This document shows, piece after piece, positions 20,782 to 26,906 of a stretch of DNA of 64,000 nucleotides (the stretch's first letter is position 1; each line of letters starts with the position of its first letter). The notes below the pieces were generated by a model, which ran no database searches, was not told the DNA's origin, and saw only the letters and a list, made by a program, of their open reading frames with translations. Position numbers and translations under genes: made by a program. This stretch comes from Streptomyces sp. CB09001 (lineage in GTDB: Bacteria > Actinomycetota > Actinomycetes > Streptomycetales > Streptomycetaceae), in assembly GCF_003369795.1 (NCBI RefSeq), contig NZ_CP026730.1:7121001-7185000 (forward strand). The letters run 5' to 3'.

Positions 20782-22140
20782 TCAGGCGCCGACGAGGCGC
20801 ACCGCTCCCCACAGGGCCACCGTCGACGAGGCGACCGTGGCCGGCACGGTGAGCAGTCCCAGCGCGGTGAACCGGCCCAGCTCCACCTCGACGCCGTACC
20901 GGTGCAGGATGCGCCGCCACAGCAGGGTCGCCAGCGAACCGACGTAGGTCAGGTTGGGGCCCAGGTTCACCCCGATCAGCACGGCGAGGACCTGGGCCGG
21001 ACCGGCGGGCGCGGCCAGCGGGAGCAGAGCGAGTACGGCGGGCAGGTTGTTGACGACGTTGGCCAGCACCGCGGCGACCGCCGCCACCCCGAGCAGCGCC
21101 GGCAGCGAGTCCCCGTCCGGCAGCAGCCGCCCGAGCCCGCTCGCCGACGCGCCCGCCAGCACCCCCTCCACCACGATGCCGAGGGCGAGTACGAACAGGC
21201 AGAACAGCGGCGCGGCGGCGCCCACCGTCTCCCGGGGCGTGACATGGCGGCGGGCCAGCGCCCGTACCCCGAGCACCAGCACGCCGCCGAGCGCGGCCCA
21301 GGCGGGGTCCACCCCGGCCGGCGAGGCCACCGCGAACCCGGCCAGGGTCAGGGCCACGACGACCACGGTGAAACGGGGCACGGCGGGCGCGGGCGGCGCG
21401 GACGCCACGCTCGGCCCGGCACCGGGGGCGCCGCCCGCGGCCTTCGCGGGGGCGGGTCCGGTGGCTCCGGGAGCGACGGACACGGTGCCGACGCGTGCGG
21501 GGGCCGCGGACACCGGCTCGGCCAGGTCCGCGCGGAAGAAGCGGCGGAACACCGCGTACTCGACGGCGATCGCGGCCAGCCAGGGCAGCGCCATCAGCAC
21601 GGCGAACCGGGTGAAGGACAGCCCGCTGGCCGCGAAGGCCAGCAGGTTGGTCAGGTTGGAGACCGGCAGGAGCAGCGAGGCGGAGTTCGCCAGATGCGCG
21701 GTCGCGTACACGTGCGGGCGGGCCCGCGCACCGGCCCGCGAAGCGGTGGCCAGGACCACGGGGGTGAGCAGTACGGCGGTGGCGTCCAGACTGAGCACCG
21801 CCGTGACCGCGCAGGCCACCGCGAAGACTCCGGTCATGAGCCGCCGCGGACTGCCGCCGCACCGGCGGGCCAAGGCCGCGCCGACGGCCTCGAACAGGCC
21901 CTCCTTGGCACACAGGTACGCCAGCATCAGCACGAGTGCGAGGAAGGCGACGACCGGCAGCAGCGTACGGGTCTGCTCCCACGCCCGGTGCGGGGAAACC
22001 ATGCCCAGCGCCACGACCAGCACCGCGGCGGGCACGGCGGCCACCGCCTCCGGCAGCCCCCGGGGGCGCAGCACGGCGAAGGCCAGGACGCCCAGCAGCA
22101 GGACCACGGGGACGGCCTCGGAGAGGACGGTGTTGCTCAG
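20782..22140 (-). CDS. ArsB/NhaD-type (ion transporter superfamily) permease, probable CTG start
   Basis: Integral membrane transporter with about 11 helices in two halves joined by an Ala/Pro-rich loop at ~225-265. SLDATAVLLTPVVLATA and ANVVNNLPAVLALLPLA, plus GVNLGPNLTYVGSLATLLW, are the paired conserved segments of the ArsB/NhaD superfamily, so arsenite efflux or Na+/H+ exchange are the main options. The start is odd: the only upstream ATG (22218) has no ribosome site and adds a charged non-membrane leader, whereas CTG 22140 has GGAGGAG 5 bp before it and directly precedes helix 1. No arsenic genes are nearby. Confidence 0.85.
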   Translation of the reverse strand: MSNTVLSEAVPVVLLLGVLAFAVLRPRGLPEAVAAVPAAVLVVALGMVSPHRAWEQTRTLLPVVAFLALVLMLAYLCAKEGLFEAVGAALARRCGGSPRRLMTGVFAVACAVTAVLSLDATAVLLTPVVLATASRAGARARPHVYATAHLANSASLLLPVSNLTNLLAFAASGLSFTRFAVLMALPWLAAIAVEYAVFRRFFRADLAEPVSAAPARVGTVSVAPGATGPAPAKAAGGAPGAGPSVASAPPAPAVPRFTVVVVALTLAGFAVASPAGVDPAWAALGGVLVLGVRALARRHVTPRETVGAAAPLFCLFVLALGIVVEGVLAGASASGLGRLLPDGDSLPALLGVAAVAAVLANVVNNLPAVLALLPLAAPAGPAQVLAVLIGVNLGPNLTYVGSLATLLWRRILHRYGVEVELGRFTALGLLTVPATVASSTVALWGAVRLVGA

Positions 22141-22412
22141 GACTGCTCCTCCACACCGGTGGGCCGGTCGGGACCCCGCTGATCGACGAACGCGCTCCAG
22201 GGTCGCATCCCCGGGCATGGAGGGGTCGTACGAGGTGGCGCGTCCGTTGCCACGCCGGCGACGAGAGCCGGGCCGTGTTCCGCGCGGTGCGCCGAGGGCC
22301 CCTCACACGCGGTGCCGAAGGAACCGCTCAGCCGGGCTTCCCCCACCCCGACAAGGCGTTCCGCACCCGTTCGACCGCAGCGGCGTGACCCGGGTCGGGG
22401 GCCGGCGCCCGG

Positions 22413-22946
22413 TCAGACACCCAGCCTGGCCCGGAGACCGCCCGCCCGTGCCGCGGGGCCGGCCGCGGCCCGGACCGAGCGGTGCACCAGGTGGGCGTCG
22501 TGCCGCAGGTCCTGGGCGGCGTGCCGGCCGCGCCACAGCAACGAGGGGGCGCCGCCCGTGTCGTCGGCGGCGATCAGGAGCCCGCCCATAATGGACAGGT
22601 TCTTGAGGAAGTGGACGCGTTGCTGGGCGCGGTCGGACGGGTCCTCCGCCTCCCAGTACCGGTGCGCCGCCAGCGTGGTGGGGACCAGCGTCACCGCGAG
22701 GGCCAGCGCGGCCAGCCGCGGACACCGGCCGAGCCCGAGCATGATCCCGCCCACCACGTGCACGGCGCCGTTGAGCCGTACGAGTTGCTCGGTGCTGTCC
22801 GGCAGCACCGGCACCCGGTCGGCCACCGGCCGCACGATCGGCTCGGCCGCCGGTGCCACGTCCTGGGGCCTGCGCAGAGACTGCAGGCCGCCCGCGACGA
22901 ACATCGAGGCGAGCATCGGCCGGCCGGCCAGACGCAGAAGACTCAT
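22413..22946 (-). CDS. DoxX family membrane protein
   Basis: 177 residues with about four helices. AGRPMLASMFVAGGLQSLRRP is the DoxX N-terminal signature, and LVRLNGAVHVVGGIMLGLGRCPRLAALAL and HFLKNLSIMGGLLIAADD give the following helices. The C-terminus is a basic cytoplasmic tail. ATG 22946 is used because the preceding in-frame residues are charged and the start fits a weak GAGAG site. DoxX proteins sit in the membrane and are linked to redox or thiol homeostasis. The genes on either side give no functional clue. Confidence 0.85.
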   Translation of the reverse strand: MSLLRLAGRPMLASMFVAGGLQSLRRPQDVAPAAEPIVRPVADRVPVLPDSTEQLVRLNGAVHVVGGIMLGLGRCPRLAALALAVTLVPTTLAAHRYWEAEDPSDRAQQRVHFLKNLSIMGGLLIAADDTGGAPSLLWRGRHAAQDLRHDAHLVHRSVRAAAGPAARAGGLRARLGV

Positions 22947-23101
22947 GACGCTGTCTCGCTCTCTTGGAGGGGGTGCCGACGGGAACACCAGCGGGGTGGT
23001 GCCCCACTGGGATCATCAGGTGCCCCGGCCCGCCGCCGCCATTCGGCATCCGGTGACGCACCGGCGCCGCCGGGCATCGCACCGGGCGGGGAAGGCGCAG
23101 C

Positions 23102-23593
23102 TCAGAGGCTGGTGAGGAGCTGCGGCGACAAGTTCTTGATCATGGTGTTGGTCCAGCGCATCTGGCGCAGTGTCCGCGGGTGGCAGGAGGAGGCGAGCGT
23201 CAGCAGACCGCTGTCCCTCGACGCCTGGGCGGCCTGGGCCAGCATCTCCCAGTGCAGTGAGTTCTCCACGGCGGAGACGTGCAGCTCCCGCAGGTCGCGC
23301 AGGAGCAGCAGGCCCGGCTCCGGCCGGTGCACGACCGCCTCGGACGCCTTCTTGCGCAGGGTCGCGAAGACGCCGTCCGAGGAGTGGTCCGGCGCCTCGC
23401 CCAGTTTCACGCCGTGCTCCGCGGCGGTCTCGGCGAGCAGCCGGACGTGCTCGCGGGACCAGCGGGCGAGGTCGGTGGCGACATGGTGGACCTCGTGCTC
23501 GGTGCGGTGCCGCTCGGCGACGGTCACCAGATCGTGGGCGAGACGCCGCTCGCCGCGGTGCAGCGTGCGCAGGGTCGGATTGATGCCGTTCAC
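23102..23593 (-). CDS. Hypothetical His-rich helical protein, partner of molybdopterin oxidoreductase
   Basis: 163 residues, almost entirely predicted helix. The N-terminal half resembles a ferritin/haemerythrin-like bundle: HRGERRLAHDLVTVAERH, EHEVHHVATDLARWSREHVR with His/Glu at regular spacing (H-x3-EHEVHH, REH), which could hold a metal. No signal peptide or membrane segment. GTG 23593 follows AGGAGGG by 6 bp and overlaps the stop of the oxidoreductase (GTGA), so translation is coupled. I do not recognise a named family. Role as electron or metal partner of the oxidoreductase is inference from coupling and the histidine pattern. Confidence 0.72.
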   Translation of the reverse strand: MNGINPTLRTLHRGERRLAHDLVTVAERHRTEHEVHHVATDLARWSREHVRLLAETAAEHGVKLGEAPDHSSDGVFATLRKKASEAVVHRPEPGLLLLRDLRELHVSAVENSLHWEMLAQAAQASRDSGLLTLASSCHPRTLRQMRWTNTMIKNLSPQLLTSL

Positions 23594-26082
23594 CGGGCGC
23601 CCTCCTGGTGGCCGTGCCGGAACCCGGTGGGCTCCTGCTCCGTCGTGCGCGCCGCCGGTCCGCCCGCGGTGGGCGGGGCGGCACCGACGGCGACCGGTGC
23701 CGACGCGGTCGTGGTGGGTGCTGGGGCGGGCCGGCCGTCCCCGCGTTCCACGAGGGTGAGGGCGGCCGTGGCGGTCTTGAACAGCGGCTGCTTGGAGGCC
23801 GGGTCCCAGTCGGTGACGGTGGTCTCGTTCGCGGCCCGTCCCGGGGTGTCCGGGCCCGGCCCCGACCCGCCCGCGGTGTCCCAGTAGCCGTAGTGGAACG
23901 GCACGAACAGCAGCCCCGCGCGGATGCCGGTCACCCGTAGCCGCCCGCGCAGGGAGCCGCGCCTGCTGGTGACCTCGACCAGGTCGCCCTCGCCGAGGCC
24001 GAGCCGCTCCGCGTCCCCGGCGGAGACCTCCACCCACACGTCGGGGGCGGCGGCGTTCAGCTGGGGCGCCCGCCCGGTCTTCGTACGGGTGTGGAAGTGG
24101 TAGAGCGTCCGGCCGGTCGTGAGCTGGAACGGGTACTCCTCGTCCGGCTCCTCGTGCGGCGGCAGAAAGGCGGCGGCCTTCAGCATCGCCTTGCCGTCGG
24201 GGTTGAGGGAGCGGTACTCCACGACCTCCTGCGAGGCCCCGGTCTCCAGGTCCTTGCCGTAGCTCTCGCACCTGTCGGGGTGGGCCCAGCCGATGCCGTC
24301 CGTGTAGAGCCGTGCCGTCCCCTCGGGGGTCCGCTCGTCGCAGGGCCACTGGATGCCGCCGGCGTCGCGCAGCTTGGCGTAGGACAGTCCGGTGTAGTCG
24401 CAGGGGCGGCCCGCGCTGCACCGCTTCCACGCCTCGAACGCCGACTCGGGGTCGTCCCAGGTGACCAGCGGACCGCCGTCCTTGTCCCGGAAGTCCATGC
24501 GCCGCGCGTAGTCCAGGAAGATGTCCAGGTCGGGCCTGGCCTCGCCGGGCGGTTCCACCGCCTTGCAGGACAGGTGCACCGTACGGTCCGCGTTGGTGAG
24601 CGCGCCGGTCTTCTCGCCCCAGGTCGCGGCGGGCAGCACCACGTCGGCCAGCTGCGCCGTCTCCGTCAGGTACAGGTCCTGTACGACGGTGAACAGCCGC
24701 TCCTGCGCCAGGATCGAGCGGATGCGCGGCAGTTCGGGCATCGAGACGGCGGGGTTGGTTCCGCTGATCCACAGCATCCGCAGCGAGCCCTGCTCCGCGT
24801 ACCGGAAGATCTGCATGGCGTGGGTGGGCGGCGCGAAGTGCGGGACGGTCTCCGGCTCGACGTTCCACACCCGGGCCAGGTCGGCCACATGGGCGTCGTT
24901 CTGCCAGTTGCGGAAGCCCGGCAGGTCGCCGTTGGCCCCGCACTCGCGGGTGTTCTGGGCGGTGGGCTGGCCGTTCATCTGGAGGAGCCCGGCGCCGGGC
25001 CGGCCCAGCATCCCGCGGATCAGGTGCAGGTTGTTGATCTGGACGGCGGCGGCGGTCGCCTGGTGGGACTGGTAGACGCCCTGGAGGACGGTGGACACCA
25101 ACGCGTCGGTGGTGCCGACCAGTTCGGCCGCCTCCTCGATCCGGGCGGCGGGGACGTCGCAGATCTCCGCGGCCCACTTGGGCGTGCAGTCGGCGACCCG
25201 GGCGGCCAGCTCGTCGAAGCCGACGGTGTGCGCGGCGATGAAGTCCCGGTCGGTCCGCTCGTGCCGGATCGTCTCGTGCAGCAGGGCGTTGAGCAGGGCG
25301 ACGTTGGTGCCGCTGCGGGGCGCGAGGTGTACCGCGGCGTGTGCGGCGACGCGGGTGGGGCGCGGGTCCACGCACAGCAGCCGCGGCGGGTCGGCCCCCT
25401 CCAGGCGGTCGAGGAGACGCATCCACTGCACGGGCTGCGTCTCGGCGATGTTGTGGCCGAACAGCGCCACCACGTCGGCGTGGTCGAAGTCGTCGTAGCT
25501 GCCGGGCTGCCCGTCGCAGCCGAAGGTCTCCTTCAGCGCTTCCGCCGCGGTGGCGGTGCACAGGCGGGTGTTGCCGTCGAGGTGGTTGGTGCCGATGCCG
25601 GCCCGGGCCAGGACCGTGAGCGTGTAGTACTCCTCCAGGAACAGCTGACCGCTCGTGTAGAAGCCGATCGAGCCCGGTCCGCGCGAGTCCAGCAGTTCGT
25701 GCGAGCGGGCCGCCACCAGATCCATCGCCGTGTCCCAGTCCGTCTCCGTCAACCGCCCGTTCCGCCGCACCAGCGGCCGGGTCAGCCGGTCACGGGAGGC
25801 GTTGGCCTGCCACCCGAACAGGTCCTTCGGACCGAGCCGCCCCCGGTTGACCCGGTCCACGTCCCGGCCCCGTACGCCCACCATGCGGCCGTCGGCCACC
25901 GCGATGTCCATGGCGTCGCCGTCCGAGTGCAGGATCGACGCGGACTGCACCCACCGCTGCACCGCCCCGGGCTCCACTCCGTCGGCGAGGAACGTGTCCA
26001 CCCGGGCCGGCCAGGACTCGTGCCGTCCGAAGGGCACCCGTGTGCCCCACGGCCGCGCGATCCGGTCCGTCGCATCCTCCAT
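23590..26082 (-). CDS. Molybdopterin oxidoreductase lacking the [4Fe-4S] cysteines
   Basis: 830-residue enzyme of the nitrate reductase/formate dehydrogenase (DMSO reductase) family. Molybdopterin-binding segments are present: VNRGRLGPKDLFGWQAN, the probable Mo ligand Cys175 in NTRLCTATA, GQPTAQNTRECGANGDLPG, and the C-terminal molydopterin dinucleotide domain from TTGRTLYHFHTRTKTGR. The N-terminal motif that should be CxxCxxxC...C reads SASILHSDGDAMD, with Ser49, His52, Asp56 and Gly84 in place of the cysteines; the codons confirm this. It thus should carry no cluster. ATG 26082 has GGGAGG 6 bp upstream. No Tat signal, so cytoplasmic. The natural substrate is unknown; the small partner gene follows. 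Confidence 0.9.
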   Translation of the reverse strand: MEDATDRIARPWGTRVPFGRHESWPARVDTFLADGVEPGAVQRWVQSASILHSDGDAMDIAVADGRMVGVRGRDVDRVNRGRLGPKDLFGWQANASRDRLTRPLVRRNGRLTETDWDTAMDLVAARSHELLDSRGPGSIGFYTSGQLFLEEYYTLTVLARAGIGTNHLDGNTRLCTATAAEALKETFGCDGQPGSYDDFDHADVVALFGHNIAETQPVQWMRLLDRLEGADPPRLLCVDPRPTRVAAHAAVHLAPRSGTNVALLNALLHETIRHERTDRDFIAAHTVGFDELAARVADCTPKWAAEICDVPAARIEEAAELVGTTDALVSTVLQGVYQSHQATAAAVQINNLHLIRGMLGRPGAGLLQMNGQPTAQNTRECGANGDLPGFRNWQNDAHVADLARVWNVEPETVPHFAPPTHAMQIFRYAEQGSLRMLWISGTNPAVSMPELPRIRSILAQERLFTVVQDLYLTETAQLADVVLPAATWGEKTGALTNADRTVHLSCKAVEPPGEARPDLDIFLDYARRMDFRDKDGGPLVTWDDPESAFEAWKRCSAGRPCDYTGLSYAKLRDAGGIQWPCDERTPEGTARLYTDGIGWAHPDRCESYGKDLETGASQEVVEYRSLNPDGKAMLKAAAFLPPHEEPDEEYPFQLTTGRTLYHFHTRTKTGRAPQLNAAAPDVWVEVSAGDAERLGLGEGDLVEVTSRRGSLRGRLRVTGIRAGLLFVPFHYGYWDTAGGSGPGPDTPGRAANETTVTDWDPASKQPLFKTATAALTLVERGDGRPAPAPTTTASAPVAVGAAPPTAGGPAARTTEQEPTGFRHGHQEGAR

Positions 26083-26178
26083 CGCCGGCCTCCCGCCAAC
26101 TCCCGCCAACGTTTCCTCTTTCCGTCACACTGCCGGCCGCCGGGTACCCGGGCGCCACCCATCGAAGCGAACCACTTG

Positions 26179-26192
26179 TGGGAGCGCTCCCA
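26179..26192. promoter_or_regulatory. 14-bp palindrome TGGGAGCGCTCCCA, CebR/LacI-type operator
   Basis: A perfect palindrome identical to the consensus described for the cellobiose-responsive LacI-family regulator CebR in Streptomyces. It lies 16-19 bp before the GNAT start and 97 bp upstream of the divergent molybdopterin gene start, well placed to control either. Confidence 0.65.
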
Positions 26193-26210
26193 GGCGGGCA
26201 GGATGCCGTG

Positions 26211-26906
26211 GTGACAGCGACTGCCTCCGTACGCCCCTACCGACCCGCCGACGCCCCGGCCCTCGACGACATCTGCATCCGGACCGCGCACAACGGCCGG
26301 GACAGCCGGCCCGTGTACGCCGACCCCGCCGTCCTGCCGGCCATCTTCGCCGCGCCCTACGTCCACCTGGATCCCGACCTGGTCTTCGTGCTGGACGACG
26401 GGCAGGGCCAGGCGGTCGGCTACATCCTCGGCACGGCGGACACCGCGCGCTTCGCCGCCGAGTTCCGGGCGACGTGGCTGCCGAGGGTCGCCGACCGGTA
26501 TCCGGCCCCGCAGGGTCCGCCCGGCACCCGCACCCCGGACGAGGTCATGGCCGGGCTGCTGCACGACCCGGAGCGCATGGTCGTCCCGGAACTGGCGGCC
26601 TACCCCGCCCATCTGCACATCGACCTGCTGCCCGACTGGCAGGGGCAGGGGCACGGCCGGACCCTGATGCGGACGTTGTGGCGGGCCCTGCGCGAACGCG
26701 GCGTCCCGGCCGTCCACCTGGTCATGGCGACGGCCAACACCCCGGCCAGGGCCTTCTACGACCGCCTGGGCTTCCACGAGATCGCGGCGTCGGGCCTCGA
26801 CCCCGCGGACGTCACCTGCCTGGGCCGTACGACGCGGGACACGGGCCGTACGACGCGGGACACGGCGCGCACGACGCGGGACGCCGGACGGAGCCGACGC
26901 GGCTGA
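26211..26906 (+). CDS. GNAT family N-acetyltransferase
   Basis: Acetyltransferase of about 231 residues. N-terminal VRPYRPADAPALDDICIRTA and the acetyl-CoA site LHIDLLPDWQGQGHGRTLMRTL (Q-x-x-G-x-G/A), followed by ATANTPARAFYDRLGF, define the GNAT fold. In-frame GTGs at 26208 and 26211 are both possible; no good ribosome site is seen. The C-terminal tail carries three copies of a seven-residue unit (GRTTRDT) encoded by 21-bp repeats. Relatives include glucosamine-related acetyltransferases; the CebR-like operator upstream fits a sugar link but that is inference. Confidence 0.9.
   Translation: MTATASVRPYRPADAPALDDICIRTAHNGRDSRPVYADPAVLPAIFAAPYVHLDPDLVFVLDDGQGQAVGYILGTADTARFAAEFRATWLPRVADRYPAPQGPPGTRTPDEVMAGLLHDPERMVVPELAAYPAHLHIDLLPDWQGQGHGRTLMRTLWRALRERGVPAVHLVMATANTPARAFYDRLGFHEIAASGLDPADVTCLGRTTRDTGRTTRDTARTTRDAGRSRRG
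26822..26887 (+). repeat. 21-bp tandem repeat within GNAT gene end
   Basis: Three consecutive 21-bp units at 26822, 26843 and 26864 encode GRTTRDT, GRTTRDT and ARTTRDA at the C-terminus of the acetyltransferase. The period is a multiple of three, so copy changes would keep the frame. Confidence 0.85.

Follow-up and report, generated by a model that had tools for sequence, protein, structure and literature searches.

A MopB-superfamily oxidoreductase of Streptomyces that lacks every iron-sulfur cluster ligand is encoded with a small, predicted ferritin-like protein

A 64,000-nt stretch of the Streptomyces sp. CB09001 genome (NZ_CP026730.1, positions 7,121,001 to 7,185,000; this whole stretch is referred to as the window) carries on its minus strand a gene for an oxidoreductase of the MopB, or DMSO (dimethyl sulfoxide) reductase, superfamily that has none of the four cysteines of the NapA/NasC-type [4Fe-4S] motif. 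A gene for a small, predicted ferritin-like protein lies directly downstream. The two genes and the positions discussed below are as follows:

23590..26082, minus strand: MopB-superfamily oxidoreductase without Fe-S ligands, 830 residues (open reading frame (ORF); PF00384 and PF01568, no PF04879; NapA and formate dehydrogenases nearest)
25822..25938, minus strand: former Fe-S motif, S49, H52, D56 ... G84-P-K86-D87 (codon positions and alignment)
25555..25560, minus strand: C175-T176, with Thr next to the Cys that is expected to ligate Mo (alignment and codon positions)
23102..23593, minus strand: partner gene, 163 residues, predicted ferritin-like four-helix bundle (ORF, profile and model)

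The oxidoreductase frame is uninterrupted from an ATG at 26082 to a TGA at 23592-23590 (830 codons; G+C fraction at third codon positions 0.958). Its product matches the Pfam profiles Molybdopterin (PF00384; E 3.2e-54, 184.7 bits) and Molydop_binding (PF01568; E 8e-27, 93.9 bits) above their cut-offs, and the presence of both molybdopterin domains places it in the superfamily. The Pfam search found no Molybdop_Fe4S4 domain (PF04879) in the protein; among the relatives tested, this profile scores above cut-off in 5/5 members that keep three cluster cysteines and in 0/2 members that keep none. The genome (7.79 Mb, a single contig) contains nine PF00384 matches, and among the homologues fetched the closest belong to Streptomyces (S. 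tendae, 95%). By sequence, the closest solved structure is that of Desulfovibrio NapA (2jio, phmmer E 1.3e-103); by fold, NapA and formate dehydrogenases rank first (2v45, E 1.3e-48). A model of the twin-arginine translocation (TAT) signal has no match in the window protein and a weak one, slightly below cut-off, in E. coli NapA, which is slight evidence for a cytoplasmic location.

The phmmer alignment with 2jio places S49 (TCG, 25938-25936), H52 (CAC, 25929-25927), D56 (GAC, 25917-25915) and G84 (GGT, 25833-25831) at the four cluster cysteines of NapA and Cys175 (TGC, 25560-25558) at its Mo-site cysteine, which we take to be the Mo ligand; all codons are on the minus strand. A preliminary description of the locus, made from the letters alone, had named the same four residues and had considered Cys175, the molybdopterin segments and the full length to be retained; codons, alignment and Pfam profiles agree with it on each point. 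Because the ligands are missing, the normal cluster electron wire is unusable, as that description also held. The residue after the Mo cysteine is Thr176, versus Met in nitrate-reductase references and His in E. coli FdhF.

Among the 80 closest homologues and the query, H52, D56 and Cys175 are each present in 81/81 sequences, and none of the 80 has a Cys at position 49 or 84; alignment A2 contains 43 of these 80 together with the window protein. When the set is widened to 146 distinct homologues, 115 of them carry no cluster cysteine, which bears out the suggestion of a distinct subfamily. This class was defined by H52 and D56; D87, which was no part of the definition, occurs in 115/115 of its sequences, as do K86, C175 and T176, and long invariant runs pass through both molybdopterin domains. 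A conserved S/H/D/G site is rejected because positions 49 (S 98, T 11, A 6) and 84 (G 93, D 21, E 1) vary among the 115 sequences. As read from the alignment, the substitutions that are conserved are H52, D56 and D87, and K86 is retained beside them; of the S/H/D conservation that the earlier description had named as a check, H52 and D56 stand and S49 fails. Fifteen of the 146 sequences, from Deinococcus, Hymenobacter, Halomonas, Staphylococcus and several actinobacteria, keep C49, C52 and C56 (CxxCxxxC) together with G84, K86-G87 and C175-T176; H52, D56 and D87 thus occupy the sites of Cys, Cys and Gly in these relatives. Eleven form a four-cysteine outgroup (Met follows the Mo cysteine in 9/11), two read S, G, D, D, R and E across the motif and have G175, and three could not be scored.

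The gene is under purifying selection and not in decay. The ratio of non-synonymous to synonymous rates (dN/dS) is 0.16-0.39 against nine homologues (71-95% identity), and in all nine comparisons the non-synonymous divergence (pN) of the motif region, residues 40-95, lies below that of the whole gene. Hence the earlier judgement that the gene is intact agrees with both the open frame and the substitution rates. The combination that had been named as a sign of recent loss of function, close relatives with cysteines and a high non-synonymous rate, was not what we found: the 80 nearest homologues lack Cys49 and Cys84, and the rates are low.

A family member (E up to 1e-200) is present in 32 of 197 genomes drawn evenly from the class of the window: 23 have the cysteine-less form with H/D, 5 the three-cysteine form and 4 a further-drifted type. 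Every cysteine-less member seen belongs to Actinomycetota, a limit that is soft because other phyla were sampled through plasmid records only, part of them fetched. Trees were built without the motif columns. In the first tree (67 sequences, after cysteine-less sequences more than 80% identical to a kept one were dropped and the fragmentary or misaligned L145_1, L001_1 and L101_1 were excluded), the four cysteine states need three changes, the minimum possible; here the cysteine-less L109 joins two drifted sequences apart from the other cysteine-less ones, at an unresolved fork. The trees make a single origin of the cysteine-less state likely, though not proven. The fourth cysteine was probably lost first, since CxxCxxxC together with G84 survives in 15 relatives spread over several phyla, and the remaining three later, probably once. 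The earlier statement that every ligand had been replaced is right in that 0/4 cysteines remain; however, loss of the fourth is older and common to the three-cysteine homologues, and G84 is not conserved.

To locate the differences between the two groups, we asked which of the 830 positions are at least 90% fixed in the 115 cysteine-less sequences and at least 85% fixed otherwise in 14 of the 15 three-cysteine sequences (L145_2 was excluded). Only three positions separate the groups, through the changes C52H, C56D and G87D. A control split within the cysteine-less group (59 versus 56 sequences, by locus number and not by clade) yields no such site; a split of the three-cysteine sequences, 7 versus 5, yields 17, none in the motif, with small groups inflating the count. 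The concentration of change at the cluster site argues that the same Mo chemistry continues.

The GTG start of the partner gene overlaps the oxidoreductase stop codon (GTGA, 23593-23590). Profile searches place a partner at most 1.5 kb downstream, or at the C-terminal end of the enzyme, in 135/140 family members (128/133 without duplicates; L145 is split over two rows and hence counted twice, and the L133 match is weak, at 43 bits). The profile did not recognise a partner at L073, L085, L102 and L112, nor at L111, where the contig ends. On a Halomonas plasmid (L100:5983-8811), enzyme and ferritin-like partner form one polypeptide. The structural model of the partner (mean predicted local distance difference test, pLDDT, 88.6; predicted template modelling score, pTM, 0.80) has four long helices, and its VIA Z scores of 18.9 against 3hiu (over 141 residues), 18.3 against 4cvs (bacterioferritin) and 17.6 against 3ogh (YciE) have to be read with the caution that helical bundles generally score high. 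Foldseek matches are weak (best E 0.016, none below 0.001). In the model, the partner looks like a ferritin-like four-helix bundle, the fold of DUF892/YciE-YciF and bacterioferritin, whereas sequence similarity to these is not significant: sequence searches gave no significant link to YciF, YciE or Bfr, the one match of the partner profile among PDB sequences (E 1.2) is at chance level, and DUF892 matches 2/67 partner members at E up to 1 (best E 0.00098) and one of eight further members at E 0.0076, under its cut-off.

Partners beside cysteine-less enzymes (n=111) carry H33 in 94, E34 in 94, D41 in 100, E116 in 98 and H138 in 99 sequences, while P, D, T, T and E/S predominate at these positions in 12 partners that accompany three-cysteine enzymes. 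Fourteen further positions differ by the same looser test, 19 in total, and since most of them hold residues of non-metal type, the remodelling is no specific evidence for a metal site. E15, H29, H49, W115, Q120 and W147 are common to both groups (alignment A1 holds 66/78 partner references and the window partner). Ferritin-like di-iron sites use Glu, ExxH, Glu and ExxH as ligands. E15, H33, E34, H37, D41, H49, E116 and H138, candidates at most for such a site, are largely conserved beside cysteine-less enzymes, and the last helix of the window partner has no ExxH. In L142 and L143 the partner contains a long glycine/FD-rich insert, and in L101, a Gloeothece plasmid, the partner is split over two ORFs and the N-terminal frame of the three-cysteine enzyme is disrupted, so that this copy is broken.

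Two other genes flank the pair:

26040..26906, plus strand: GNAT acetyltransferase ORF, divergent; the listed frame runs into the 5' end of the oxidoreductase gene, and its true start is probably further in (context only)
22413..22988, minus strand: DoxX-family membrane protein, downstream (context only)

Among the fetched homologous loci searched, GNAT and DoxX genes occur only in the ten closest (L009-L018). An ArsB/CitMHS-type transporter (window 20782-22218) lies near the locus and has no homologue in the fetched loci within their limited flanks. In 89 thinned loci, the recurring neighbours are short-chain dehydrogenase/reductase (SDR) genes in 12, hemerythrin-domain proteins in 8 and zinc alcohol dehydrogenases in 7, each type being checked on one fragment; most other clusters were frame-overlap ORFs and were ignored. 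A stress-gene setting of the family is only a hint. At 12 annotated plasmid loci, formate/nitrite-transporter or HPP genes stand beside 3/8 enzymes with cysteines and 0/4 without; they adjoin three-cysteine members in Deinococcus and Halomonas, and an HPP gene adjoins the Gloeothece copy. These neighbours are a weak hint that small anions may be the substrates. Several arrangements are worth recording. Deinococcus aetherius pDAETH-1 carries two family copies (L097 and L144), one of them followed by partner, formate/nitrite-transporter and HPP genes. An HPP gene comes after the Halomonas fusion gene, with fdhD, DUF1641 and fdhF genes nearby. One genome (G076) has both a cysteine-less gene (L115) and, ~5.7 kb away, a Nas-like gene with four cysteines. 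A Staphylococcus saprophyticus plasmid (L102:5956-8382) encodes a three-cysteine relative (42%) that carries a LysM domain at its C-terminus and lies near SDR, alcohol dehydrogenase and stress-protein genes.

Taken together, we consider it probable that the gene encodes a working cytoplasmic oxidoreductase of the Nas/Nap/Fdh lineage with a Mo-bis(molybdopterin guanine dinucleotide) cofactor, no internal cluster and an obligate small partner. Its history would have begun with loss of the fourth cysteine, giving the CxxCxxxC...G form that relatives across several phyla share. In a later step, probably a single one and met only in Actinomycetota so far, the other three cysteines would have changed to S/T/A, H and D, together with G87D, while the Mo site (Cys175, Thr176) and nearly everything else stayed as in the three-cysteine relatives. 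The enzyme would form a complex with the ferritin-like protein encoded directly downstream, and electrons may reach Mo directly, either from a donor docked at or presented by the partner or from a soluble reductant, as in DorA and BisC. H52, D56 and D87 would fill the old cluster cavity with K86, the simplest arrangement being a network of hydrogen bonds or salt bridges.

Several observations weigh against this reading. The mixture-model tree (42 sequences) puts the cysteine-less group, the two drifted sequences included, on one side of a branch, with a support of only 41; when the drifted and Staphylococcus sequences are left out, the free tree splits the group and needs three changes versus a minimum of two, although a constrained tree that keeps the group whole is more likely and is not rejected (approximately unbiased test, p 0.674). 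Under relaxed thresholds nine sites separate the groups, 49, 52, 56, 87 and five beyond the motif, and positions 11, 201 and 202 are at least 95% fixed in cysteine-less sequences with residues rare in the others. The oxidoreductase model has a pLDDT below 50 exactly at residues 50-55 and 170-194, and therefore confirms neither the site geometry nor cofactor binding. In genus g161 (L142, L143, L157 and L158), H52 is replaced by G and K86 by R in 4/4 sequences, and Cys175 by G in 2/4, being kept in the other two; the family can therefore tolerate loss of the Mo ligand. This branch, in which L142 and L143 are changed at 58 of 194 otherwise near-invariant sites, is perhaps a pseudo-enzyme in the making. 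Because three-cysteine members also have the partner, it predates full loss of the cluster and did not arise as its replacement. Finally, we found no biochemical data on any family member in the literature searched.

As an alternative, the emptied cluster cavity may have become a new metal site, with H52, D56 and D87 (plus D/E84 in 22/115) binding a mononuclear metal that carries or gates electrons. The three residues occur together in 115/115 cysteine-less sequences, and under the strict thresholds nothing else sets these apart from the three-cysteine sequences, but they also suit a salt-bridge network with K86 and arginines, G at 84 in 93/115 and S/T/A at 49 would leave few further side-chain ligands in most members, and the loop geometry cannot be read at this pLDDT; we regard a metal site as unlikely, if worth keeping in mind. 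A bolder version holds that the Fe-S site was converted once, in place, to a His-Asp-Asp site (another metal or a proton/electron relay), and that the ferritin-like subunit was remodelled alongside, at H33, D41, E116 and H138, so that a metal centre other than Fe-S could supply the electrons, which would make a molybdoenzyme without any Fe-S chemistry. We rate this as a long shot.

It is improbable that fold and partner were kept while redox catalysis disappeared, leaving a pseudo-enzyme or scaffold. Other MopB members, FhcB, Nqo3 and ActB, did keep the fold and lose the Mo/W cofactor, according to PMC10100899, and half of the g161 sequences lack Cys175; however, Cys175-Thr176 is present in 115/115 sequences and the invariant stretches through both molybdopterin domains are long. 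Equally small is the chance of a non-redox or self-contained reaction that needs no wire, such as that of a hydratase or transhydroxylase or an oxygen-atom exchange, for which acetylene hydratase is a non-redox example. Loss of the cluster without change elsewhere suits one that was already dispensable, and the transhydroxylase PgtL is a superfamily member (PMC10100899). Against this, the three-cysteine relatives have the same Mo motif and partner and keep most of the cluster motif, and the neighbours seen indicate no such substrate. The idea that an ordinary nitrate reductase copy has recently decayed would fit the annotation 'nitrate reductase' on 15/19 plasmid records above 55% identity, yet it is rejected as next to impossible, given that selection is purifying, the motif region included (dN/dS as above), and that the loss is common to 115 sequences from many actinobacterial genera.

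Most superfamily enzymes carry an N-terminal cluster (PMC10100899), the presumed point of electron entry or exit. A working enzyme without one, as we favour here, would be of interest since the sequences record the loss stage by stage, with four, three and no cysteines, and the rest is nearly constant between the last two states; against this near-constant background, three- and zero-cysteine members with the same partner offer a direct test of whether the cluster is needed. The family could also reveal how molybdoenzymes that do without oxygen-sensitive Fe-S adjust to an aerobic life. We met no cysteine-less Nas-like family in the accessible part of PMC10100899, and no paper on one turned up in the open-licence literature by title or abstract start. 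Two M. smegmatis proteins, MSMEG_6816 (a GlnR-regulated 'molybdopterin oxidoreductase' of 720 residues, dispensable for nitrate reduction) and MSMEG_2237 (760 residues), are possible members and were not used as evidence.

Among known systems, NapA, NasA and NasC are nearest by sequence and fold and have the Mo Cys ligand and a GQP motif in common with the window protein. The references differ from it in having four cluster cysteines, Cys-Met and TGQ, where the window protein has none, Cys-Thr and NGQP, with Asn370 in N370-G-Q-P replacing the Thr. Its NCBIfam scores fall short of the cut-offs for NasC (387.9/1100 bits), haloarchaeal NasA (362.3/1000), NapA (326.8/930.55) and bisC_fam (130.9/1017.55), and neither it nor four relatives reach any equivalog cut-off among the families listed. 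Since the active-site letters also differ, 'nitrate reductase' is a label and not a finding. Formate dehydrogenases give the best NCBIfam score (Fdh-alpha, 446 bits, below the cut-off of 666.25), but combine Cys/Sec-His (or Gln) with RG(Q/H), in contrast to Cys-Thr and an Asn for the arginine here. TorA and BisC have no N-terminal cluster; AioA holds a [3Fe-4S] instead of a [4Fe-4S] cluster, with a single cysteine lost.

PMC8808070 describes ForCE of B. subtilis as a soluble formate dehydrogenase in which the catalytic subunit depends on a small partner for its coupling to menaquinone, the partner being essential. The window pair would resemble it in this architecture and differs in composition, as ForE is a DUF1641 protein and ForC carries five Fe-S clusters (PMC8808070). 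According to PMC10100899, FDH (formate dehydrogenase), Nas, Nap and AioA form one clade, DorA, without the N-terminal cluster, belongs to the Ser-coordinating group of another major clade, and IdrA has [3Fe-4S] in place of [4Fe-4S]. DorA, TorA and BisC share the missing cluster with the window protein but not the ligand, which is Ser in that group and, by alignment, Cys175 here. In having [3Fe-4S], AioA and IdrA are reminiscent of the initial step that the three-cysteine relatives display; these two enzymes keep a cluster and have no amino-acid Mo ligand, whereas the window protein would be Cys-ligated and has no cluster ligands.

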